Assembly (NCBI GenBank): GCA_002104905.1
Contig: MCFE01000197.1
Location: forward strand, 1 to 64,000
DNA from: Basidiobolus meristosporus CBS 931.73
Taxonomy: Eukaryota; Basidiobolomycota; Basidiobolomycetes; Basidiobolales; Basidiobolaceae
Length of the DNA stretch: 64,000 nt
Direction: 5' to 3'
Of this stretch, positions 26,208 through 29,765 are shown piece by piece (the stretch's first letter is position 1; each line of letters starts with the position of its first letter). The position numbers and the translations under genes are program-made. Below the pieces are notes generated by a model that saw only the letters and a program-made list of their open reading frames with translations, ran no database searches and had not been told where the DNA came from.

Positions 26208-27684
26208 ATGATGAGAGGAGAAGCGTCAGTCTCAAAGCCAATCAAGCTCCTTTTTTTCCTCTACGTATTCCTCTCTTTTCTTTATATTGTCCACTACTTC
26301 TACGAGATACCGAGTCCAAGTAAGTTCAGCGTCTTATCAGTTGCACGAAACCCCAAGTGAACACGAGTCCTGTCCTAGATATTCTCAAGATCCCACGCTA
26401 CACCCAGGAGTTGACGTTGGATGATGCAGGTAACCAGTGTCCCGCGCTTTCCACCGAGTGCCTCTTCTGATTCACCAGTTGCTAGACTCTATGTTCGGCG
26501 GCCACAATAACCGTTATGTCTACTCCAAATTATTCTCGAGCGCTATGCAGCCAAGCAACCTAGAGCCGTTTTATATCCGTGCTGAATTGATCCCCTCGCC
26601 AGACGATATCACCATCACAACGTTGATTACACCGGATCGATTTGAAGTATTTGAGAAACTCATCAATCATTATCAAGGTAACTCGAGCTACTCATTAGTC
26701 CATGACCGAAGCTTACCACCCCCACCCCTTACCAGGGCCCATCTCTGCCACCTTACATGTGGACGAAACACCTGAGAAGAGAAAAATCCTTGGAAGACTC
26801 CAAGCGATGTACATGAGAAACCCCTCGATGCGGAGATACGTGGATGTACACTTGATAGTGGATTCATTCGAAAGACAGTTTAACTACTGGCGTAATGTAG
26901 CCAGATTCTTTGCTCGGACCAAGTACATCCTGATGCTGGATGTAGACTTCTTCCCGTGCACGAACTTGCGGCAAAATCTACAGCGACACCCACAACTATT
27001 GGGCAAACTGCGAGAGGGGAATGCAGCAATAGTAATTCCTGCTTTCGAATATGGGGCGCTGGATGAGGGTCGGAATTCTGATCACTTCCCACGCACCAAA
27101 GACGCTCTAATCAAGGTGGTCCGTTCTGGACACCTTGACATGTTCCACAAGGTGTGGCAACAAGGGCACGGATCTACCAATTACACCCGATGGTACTCCG
27201 CCGATCAGCCATACCTTGTCACAGAATACACCTACAGCTATGAGCCATATGTCGTGGTGAAAAAAGATGCGGTGCCCTGGTGCGACGAGAGGTTTATCGG
27301 TTATGGTGCCAACAAGGCAGCCTGTTTGTATGAGATCTATTTATCTGGAACTGATTTCTGGGTGCTGCCCAACGATTTTTTGATCCACCAAAACCATGAC
27401 TATCCAGAGGTGACCCGTCGAATGGAGGTAAGCCAGGGCCGCAGGCTCGACAAGAAGACTACTTACTGATCAGGCTCGTCTTGTAGAGAAAACTTAACAA
27501 GCAGATCTACACGAATTTCCGGGAGGAAAGTTGCTATCGTTATTGGCGAAATGCCTTGGCCCTGGGGACTTGGAACAGCCCGCGCTCCAGCAACGCCAGA
27601 CGCGAGTGCAGTAAGATCCCGGAATTTATGGAATTACTCAATGAGTTGGATAATCCGAATTCAATCTCACTTAATTCCAATTGA
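26208..27684 (+). CDS. GT49/LARGE-like glycosyltransferase, type II membrane protein
   Basis: Five exons join in phase for 414 aa: 26208-26319, 26379-26429, 26486-26677, 26736-27427 and 27487-27684. Residues ~13-32 (IKLLFFLYVFLSFLYIVHYF) form an uncleaved signal anchor, so the catalytic part should face the Golgi lumen. The Glyco_transf_49-like domain covers the rest, with LMLDVDFFPC carrying the DxD metal-binding motif, then a region like the LARGE/B4GAT1 C-terminal transferase (EPYVVVKKDAVPWCDERFIG, NDFLIHQNHDYPE). In animals the relatives add glucuronate to O-mannosyl glycans. The fungal substrate is unknown. Its 3' end converges with THI5, and the riboswitch on the other strand starts 66 bp beyond its stop. 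Confidence 0.85.
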
Positions 27685-27749
27685 CCATCTGACCATCCTA
27701 TCCTAATGACAAACACACTAGAGCCATCTTTCAATTGTTTATTTCCAAT

Positions 27750-27875
27750 GGCAACTTTCCCTTGCGCAGGTATTATCCTGTTCAGGTTCAAAGGGTATGA
27801 TCTCAGTCCATTTGCAGCATCCCGCTAGACCCTTACCTAGGCCCGACAGCATACCACAGGACACCCCTAGTTACC
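27750..27875 (-). promoter_or_regulatory. TPP riboswitch aptamer (THI element) in the 3' UTR of THI5
   Basis: Read on the minus strand, the sequence carries the THI-element core in order: AACTAGGGGTGTCC, a long variable P3 arm, GGACTGAGA, ATACCCTTTGAACCTGA, ACAGGATAATACCTG and CGCAAGGGAAAGTT. P1 pairs AACT with AGTT. P2 pairs GGGTGT with ATACCC. P3 pairs GTCC with GGAC. P5 pairs CAGG with CCTG, a compensatory variant of the bacterial CTGG/CCAG. The bases that contact TPP (CTGAGA at 27801-27806 on the plus strand as TCTCAG, and GGATAAT) are conserved. It begins 28 bp after the THI5 stop codon, on the same strand, so it is downstream of the coding sequence. The nearest other gene is convergent. 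Confidence 0.93.
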
Positions 27876-27902
27876 AACGAAAAAAATAAATTACCACTGA
27901 AC

Positions 27903-29115
27903 CTAGTTTTGGGCCTGGACCTCCAGTGCTCTAGGCAGCTCGTTCTCAACTCTGTCCTGGCTACCTAATCCGGTTTTGGGTGCATTTGGGTCAACCTCTG
28001 GCAACAACGGCCAGGTTAGAAAATCATTGGTCATGTTCTGCCTGAACGCTTCGTCAACGATGCCCAAACGCTTGCAGTAGTTGGTAACCTTGTTCCAGTC
28101 ACGCTGGACATTCTTCAAATCCTTCGAGAAATAAATGAAGGAACGGTCGAAGATCTTTCTGTTGACCGGTGTGTTCATGGCCGGCTTCAAGTCAACCAAC
28201 AGCTCGTATGACTCTTCTGGCTTGGCCTGGATGAAATCCATGGCTCTCTTGATTGCCTTCATGAACTTTGCAACCTTCTCGGGGTTTTCGTTGATGAATT
28301 TTTCGTTTCCAATGAAGAGAATCTAACGCATTCGTCAGTCAGACATCCCAAATCCACGGCCGGCAAGCACTTACTGAACAGAAGCAGCAGCATCCAAGCT
28401 TGGCAAGCTCATCGATGCGGAGCATTTGAACATCATCTCTGGGACGGCCTTGCTCAACACTCCACTCCTCCAGCTCGACCATCTGAACGTTCTCAATTCC
28501 TATTCCTCCGTCAATCACCCCCTTTTGAATAGCCCTGGTCACATTCATGCCTACTCGAACTGGAGTGTAGTCCTCGGGGGTCATGCCAAAATGACGGGTA
28601 AGCTCATCCAACTGAATCTTACCAAACTCGCCAACATAACCGATTCTCTTTCCACGAAGCGATTGGAAGTCGGTGGTGATCCCGTTGGCCGACTTGAGGT
28701 AAATCACCCCAGTGAATGGTTCCTAGAGTCCGAGAAAAGGTTTAAATCAACCCCCAACCCATCACTTCCCTTCAACAGCATAATTACATCGAGCAAGGTG
28801 CCAATGGACTTGATAGGGAATCCACGGGCTTTCCCAGCAATGGTATGAATCATGGCTTTCAAGCCAAGATCAGCCTTGCCACTGCCAATGATTTCGGTAA
28901 CATCTACAAATCGGGAAAGATTACGCAACTTGTCCAAGAAAAGGCAGTGGGCTTCTGGAACGTTGGAGATGCTTACCAGATGGGTCATTTGGCTCCAAGA
29001 TGGCCACCTTCACTCCCTCATCTGCGAAATAGCCAAGCTTGTGGGCAACAAACAAGGGAGCATGGTAGGGGGTGGCGTGCCAGTTCAATAAGCAGGTGAT
29101 TTTATCGGTAGACAT
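27903..29115 (-). CDS. THI5: Thi5/Nmt1: HMP-phosphate synthase (thiamine pyrimidine precursor)
   Basis: Makes 4-amino-5-hydroxymethyl-2-methylpyrimidine phosphate from PLP and its own active-site histidine, the pyrimidine half of thiamine. Four exons join in phase: 29115-28977, 28903-28788, 28722-28375 and 28322-27903, giving 340 aa, the same length as yeast Thi5. The start gives [20 protein letters not shown]. Lys62 (PLP lysine) and the donor His66 fall at the yeast positions in LKAMIHT. The CCCFC iron-site motif is at about residues 196-200 and ends exon 3. The gene is intact. A TPP riboswitch lies in its 3' flank (27750-27875), so repression by thiamine is expected, through 3'-end processing or splicing rather than a 5' UTR intron (inference). 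Confidence 0.96.
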
Positions 29116-29765
29116 CGTCGGAAACCTAGAATAACAGAAAGTGTTGTTGATGCTCTGCCACCCTCGAGGAAACTCTCTTATATACCCTCCCTCTCGACTT
29201 GACGAGCCTGAACAGTGTTTGGGGTCCAACTTACGCATGCTACACCGTATCGACATAATTATCGACAATCAGGACAATTATTCATAGCATTTGGGTGGCT
29301 TAAGAAAGCCTAAGCCGAATCCCTGCCTTCCTGGTACTACCATGCCCATCGCCACTTTGAGGAGAAATGATCAGCAAAGATGAATTACCTGGATTACCTG
29401 GAAATGTGATTACTACATCCGAGATTGTAAAGCCTATGAAATCCATCAGCATCATTGACACGTGGTCCACTGCTTTCATACTAAGCAACGCGGCACTGAG
29501 ATTTCCAGCAAAGAATTCTTGGCATCATTGTGAAACCTTAATTGAGACCATCCTATAGCAACGTTTGATTTATGTGAGCATATTCCAGCAGCCTACACTG
29601 TCGCCTACCCGCCTACTTAGTCATTGTGTGGAGCGCCAATGACTCAGGTGGTGGAAATGGATATTCCATGCTATTTATTCTATAGGTGGAGGCACCCTCT
29701 CGACAATTGCCTCTGACATATATAAAACAAGCGCCTGCTGATTTCCGCCTCATTTTCGACCTTTG

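Follow-up and report, generated by a model that had tools for sequence, protein, structure and literature searches.

Where does a fungus keep its sensor of vitamin B1? In Basidiobolus meristosporus CBS 931.73, of the phylum Basidiobolomycota, a TPP aptamer was read shortly behind the stop codon of THI5, and the locus raises the question of whether a fungal thiamine gene can be controlled from its 3' end. In the literature surveyed, characterised fungal TPP riboswitches are located in 5' UTRs or in coding introns (PMC5882874, PMC11683625). Four fungal types have been defined, in 5' UTRs or introns (PMC5882874), and the aptamers of Mucoromycota are found mostly in the 5' UTR and in some cases in an intron (PMC11683625). 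A 3' UTR TPP riboswitch has been described in THIC of plants (PMC10226581). The analysis was done on a window of 64,000 nt, which is the whole stretch of DNA under study, and on the genome of the same strain.

Scanning the whole window with cmscan gave a single TPP match at the gathering cut-off, on the coding strand of THI5 (RF00059, 59.6 bits, E 3.6e-9; gathering score 54.3). The match is complete (model positions 1-105 of 105) and thus confirms the intact aptamer announced by the sequence-only reading, which had proposed this search. The same reading had set the aptamer at 27750-27875, 28 bp past the stop. The place was right and the gap is indeed short, but the model match is wider (27878..27740, minus strand) and starts 24 nt past the stop, the figure of 28 having been counted from 27875. 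In a permissive scan of 27300-29600, no second TPP match was found, and none was located 5' of THI5. The P1-P5 fold is present in the cmscan alignment as well as in the MFE fold, and the aptamer-bearing stretch of 146 nt reaches -52.1 kcal/mol (z -3.88), while none of 200 shuffles was equally good. The features of the region are collected in Table 1.

Table 1. Features of THI5, its 3' region and the convergent neighbour (positions in the window)
Feature	Position	Strand	Evidence
THI5/NMT1 gene (HMP-P synthase), 340 aa	27903..29115	-	PF09084, 239 bits
5' splice-site-like GUG/GUAAUU (cut after GUG), GU 8 nt past the stop	27889..27897	-	predicted pairing with P1' without aptamer
TPP aptamer, full length, long P3 arm	27740..27878	-	RF00059 59.6 bits; fold z -3.88
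P1 5' strand GGUAACU, itself 5' splice-site-like	27869..27875	-	
P1' strand AGUUGCC, partner of both P1 and upstream GUGGUAAUU	27750..27756	-	
AAUAAA, 6 nt past P1', with no other copy in the 300 nt behind the THI5 stop	27738..27743	-	
GU-rich UGUGUUUGU and 3' splice-site-like UCUAG / AUUAG, past AAUAAA	27703..27722	-	read from sequence
GT49-type glycosyltransferase (3' part), convergent neighbour	26702..27684	+	PF13896 on ORF 26702-27469

The THI5 gene runs on the minus strand from the ATG at 29115-29113 to the TAG at 27905-27903 and contains three introns (28976-28904, 28787-28723 and 28374-28323), the second of which has the 5' splice site GTAATT. Its spliced product is identical, letter for letter, to a public protein of this strain (P0001, 340 aa). 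Nine homologues have a C-terminus of about this length, which shows that the coding sequence really ends at this stop. On the opposite strand, the TGA of the glycosyltransferase (27682-27684) lies 55 nt from the aptamer, which is therefore situated between convergent genes, as had been recognised from the sequence.

In order to see whether THI5 stands alone, the genome (89.0 Mb, 1311 contigs) was searched with RF00059. Three TPP aptamers were obtained at E <=0.001, a number to be taken as a lower bound with 49 of 2815 candidates scored. All three are on the coding strand and closely follow the stop codon of a gene that is complete, at a distance of 24 nt in THI5, 73 nt in an SSS-family transporter (PF00474) and 102 nt in a sugar-type MFS transporter (PF00083). 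The SSS aptamer (C557) scores 60.1 bits, above the gathering score, and the MFS aptamer (C648) 51.9 bits, below it, with E 1.3e-7. The CUGAGA and GCG ligand motifs are intact in the cmscan alignments of all three. The ends of the public proteins coincide with the stops upstream of the aptamers: the SSS protein (492 aa) shows 99% identity over a piece of 434 aa and shares the terminal residue, and the MFS protein (490 aa) matches at 100%. The C-termini being complete, an aptamer within a coding intron was dismissed.

Only one of five SSS paralogues bears an aptamer; none was found at the other four with 1.5 kb flanks scanned. Among the 63 matches listed for MFS, only the gene itself is close, and the next best has 38% identity. 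THI4 is a common target of TPP riboswitches in other fungi; here, no recognisable TPP aptamer was found in a stretch of about 5 kb for each of its two copies (L018 on C363, L019 on C571). With the THI5 aptamer as a DNA query, only the THI5 and SSS copies were retrieved and that of MFS was missed. A core pattern of 14 bases matched all three aptamers and one site at C491; a fourth aptamer at that site was dismissed, since cmscan shows no TPP there.

Position relative to the poly(A) signal was used to judge whether the aptamers belong to the 3' UTR. Of 16 other genes, 12 carry an AATAAA in the first 250 nt behind the stop (mean 2.52 and maximum 7 in 200 mononucleotide shuffles); all 16 are THI4, SSS or MFS relatives, four of them in tandem, and hence do not form an independent sample. 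THI5 and SSS each have a single AATAAA in the 300 nt behind the stop, at +162 and +229 respectively, and in both genes it lies beyond the aptamer. From this position, the THI5 and SSS aptamers most likely sit in the 3' UTR. In MFS, an AATAAA at +31 precedes the aptamer and an AATAAT at +218 lies within the extended P1; given the former, the mature MFS mRNA may be devoid of the aptamer.

Comparison of the THI5 and SSS aptamers revealed identity in 97 of 121 core columns, whereas the flanks retain 1 of 6 and 0 of 7. This sharp drop outside P1 suggests that the aptamer travelled as a unit. With the THI5 fold as reference, the 45 pairs of this one sequence pair divide into 25 unchanged, 10 one-sided, 5 compensatory, 3 broken and 2 gapped. 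Within the P3 arm (16 pairs), 8 are unchanged, 5 one-sided and 3 compensatory, with none broken or gapped, while the outer P1 holds two of the five compensatory and two of the three broken pairs. When a covariance model is made of the THI5 and SSS aptamers only, it retrieves the MFS aptamer with E 6.4e-8. From these comparisons we infer that the fold is maintained by selection.

How the THI5 aptamer might act was approached by predicting the folding of the region behind the stop. When the RNA between the stop and +230 is folded, the favoured partner of P1' in the ensemble is the 5' splice-site-like GUGGUAAUU just past the stop. With the aptamer enforced, at a cost of 3.95 kcal/mol, the predicted openness of the splice site increases from 0.01 to 0.77 at this end. 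With five different 3' ends, the openness (free/bound) was 0.14/0.52, 0.05/0.52, 0.01/0.77, 0.21/0.48 and 0.06/0.43. The shift is thus upward at all five (mean 0.45, minimum 0.27), and its size depends on the 3' end, as seen with 0.01/0.77 at 230 nt and 0.21/0.48 at 260 nt. Defining a switch at the 230-nt end by a free value <=0.1 and a bound value >=0.6, switching was obtained in 1 of 1500 dinucleotide shuffles and in 3 of 1500 native segments. When all five ends are considered, a minimum shift of 0.27 or more occurs in 6 of 1200 dinucleotide shuffles and in 4 of 2000 native 27-mers drawn from the window, and a mean of 0.45 or more in 2 of 1200 shuffles and 3 of 2000 native segments, in tests that were all devised after the fold was seen. 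Any such splice site was present in 421 of the 1200 and 118 of the 2000 control leaders, so that the rates among those are 6/421 and 4/118. With the same cut-off, no 5' splice site was found before the aptamer of SSS or MFS.

At the 200-nt end, the two THI5 folds differ by 2.07 kcal/mol, an energy gap within chance (reached by 13/300 dinucleotide shuffles, 35/300 mononucleotide shuffles, 61/300 native segments); when 60 nt of coding sequence are included, it is 0.94 kcal/mol. The gap was dismissed as proof of a switch, and likewise that of SSS (33/150). In the free ensemble, AAUAAA is mostly paired with the GU-rich stretch at the 200-nt end and mostly open (0.81) at the 230-nt end; a signal that is open without TPP is not a robust prediction of these models. 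The 3' splice-site-like region (UCUAG / AUUAG) has the same predicted accessibility with or without the aptamer. Taken as a whole, the predicted masking of a 5' splice site that SSS and MFS lack suggests a plant-like control in THI5, which is a lead short of proof.

The placement behind the stop codon is well supported, and from it, together with the largely conserved fold and the position of AAUAAA, we infer a mechanism. THI5, one of three genes with the aptamer behind the stop, would carry a 3' UTR TPP riboswitch and repress itself through the maturation of its mRNA 3' end; this reading is favoured tentatively, at somewhat less than an even chance. At low TPP, P1' would pair with the segment just past the stop and hide the 5' splice site, and the adjacent AAUAAA would be retained and used, resulting in a short and stable mRNA. 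At high TPP, binding of the ligand would close P1 and release the splice site. An intron containing the aptamer and the only AAUAAA could then be removed, and the transcript would extend into the convergent gene and presumably be unstable, giving TPP a negative effect. SSS and MFS would need a different platform, perhaps one in which the poly(A) signal is masked directly.

Direct masking is also the basis of an alternative without splicing, in which P1 and an outer extension of it crowd the poly(A) signal and TPP lowers proximal cleavage and polyadenylation. It agrees with MFS, where the bases of AAUAAU lie inside the extended P1 with unpaired probabilities of 0.00-0.20 and the extension is stronger than with any of 400 shuffled flanks (0/400 as good), and with THI5, where enforcing the aptamer at the 230-nt end lowers the openness of AAUAAA from 0.81 to 0.48. 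However, the MFS signal stays paired whether or not the aptamer is formed (0.06/0.06) and another AATAAA is located upstream of it, the openness of the SSS AAUAAA is nearly constant (0.46 to 0.49), and AAUAAA is already mostly paired in the 200-nt fold of THI5. Moreover, the extension of P1 onto the poly(A) signal is within chance in THI5 (255/400 shuffles as good), where it was dismissed, and in SSS (37/400). This alternative is considered unlikely.

In THI5 and SSS, where the aptamer follows the stop and precedes the single AAUAAA of the next 300 nt, the location would also suit an aptamer that stays part of the mature 3' UTR and affects mRNA stability, export or translation only. No TPP riboswitch is known to work in this manner, which counts against the explanation; it is held to be improbable. 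The view that the aptamers are relics or unresponsive to thiamine has a precedent in diatoms, as the one tested there, the THIC 3' UTR of Phaeodactylum, did not make reporters respond to thiamine (PMC9544697). For Basidiobolus it is judged quite improbable: between THI5 and SSS, 3 of 45 pairs are broken whereas 15 are altered yet still paired, CUGAGA and GCG are intact in 3 of 3 aptamers, and all three genes belong to thiamine-linked families. A separate minus-strand gene that would begin with the aptamer, a possibility which the sequence-only reading had raised against itself, was dismissed as very improbable: nothing was found in its favour, the downstream neighbours are convergent at all three aptamers in the stretches read (the GT49-type gene for THI5, a histidine kinase/response regulator for SSS, a GNAT acetyltransferase for MFS), and none of nine selected gap ORFs matched a Pfam family at E 0.1 or better, although about 2.4 kb (SSS) and 1.0 kb (MFS) downstream are without an identified gene.

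Returning to the splice-site switch proposed for THI5, its likeness to plant THIC lies in an aptamer behind the stop of a gene for HMP-P synthesis, a 5' splice site, predicted in THI5, which follows the stop, precedes the aptamer and can pair with aptamer sequence, and a poly(A) signal within the possible intron (PMC10226581). The two differ in the enzyme, which is THI5 here, in the pairing partner, here P1' as predicted from sequence, and in that SSS and MFS are without the splice site. Fungal Type I riboswitches (NMT1/THI5, THI4) share the aptamer class and the THI5 gene but sit in 5' UTR introns (PMC5882874), whereas the sole TPP match at the Basidiobolus THI5 is past the stop, as is the single match in each of the stretches L020 and L021, and none was found 5' of THI5 or near either THI4 copy. 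In Type II, represented by NCU01977 of Neurospora, P1' has a distant alternative partner beside a 5' splice site, as predicted for THI5, but the intron is within the coding region (PMC5882874), whereas all Basidiobolus elements lie past the stop. Coding exons after the aptamer, as in Types II and III, were not found, the public proteins ending at the same stops.

THI5, SSS and sugar-type MFS are the same kinds of genes as those reported with TPP aptamers in other fungi or algae, namely NMT1/THI5, urea/SSS-type and sugar transporters (PMC5882874, PMC11683625, PMC4260697). The TPPsw-SUGAR class of Mucoromycota likewise concerns an MFS sugar-type transporter, but it is reported in the 5' UTR (PMC11683625), while the Basidiobolus aptamer is 3'. 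Relatives of the MFS gene with 68-70% identity, compared as proteins alone, are present in Rhizopus and Phycomyces.

The sequence-only reading had proposed an independent fungal use of the plant-like 3' layout. The aptamer is indeed behind the stop at all three genes found, but the same layout has been reported far outside fungi, in diatoms (PMC9544697) and, including THI5-like genes, in Micromonas (prasinophytes) and Aureococcus (PMC4260697). The THI5-like genes of the latter two are intronless (PMC4260697), in contrast to the three introns of Basidiobolus THI5. The only other fungal 3' UTR case in the literature surveyed is eIF5B of Postia placenta, a non-thiamine gene, which is mentioned as not validated by the structure method of the authors (PMC5882874). 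No further fungal 3' UTR TPP aptamer and no paper on Basidiobolus together with a riboswitch were found in the main texts of that literature. Basidiobolus is named in the main text of neither PMC5882874 nor PMC11683625, and a fungal 3' UTR case is not named in the portions covered of PMC5997356, PMC12335538 and PMC7390266. The 3' layout is thus already known in eukaryotes and, as far as the searches reach, new for fungal thiamine genes.

For Basidiobolus, the aptamer itself is ordinary, its placement is unusual and repeated, and a plant-like working is plausible from the modelled folds. The broader proposal, that all TPP control in Basidiobolus shifted to gene 3' ends independently of plants and that THI5 acquired a THIC-like splice/poly(A) switch, is possible but doubtful. 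If it is true, with every aptamer found in this fungus behind a stop, eukaryotes evolved the 3' layout on more than one occasion, and control of 3' ends by a small molecule in a fungus could be compared with the plant model. Surveys restricted to upstream regions or introns would then overlook fungal riboswitches. Basidiobolus has its B1 sensor behind genes that the sensor probably controls, an arrangement best known in plants and hardly reported for fungi.

Some minor observations were made on the three 3' regions. The 5' splice-site-like GGUAAGGGUC is the same in the P3 arms of THI5 (27828-27837, minus strand) and SSS (L001 1588-1597, minus strand) and is missing from the MFS aptamer; its openness is unaffected by aptamer formation (0.68/0.68 and 0.78/0.78). 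In SSS, a 3' splice-site-like UUUUUUUCUAG (L001 1485-1495, minus strand) is located directly before the only AAUAAA, and the predicted openness of its last six bases increases from 0.39 to 0.71 upon aptamer formation. Between AATAAA and aptamer, the MFS 3' region contains a hairpin, GAACCCCC...GGGGGUUC (L003 1649-1676, minus strand). Finally, many public THI5/NMT1 homologues are labelled as glycylpeptide N-tetradecanoyltransferase, apparently by confusion of two genes that are both named NMT1.
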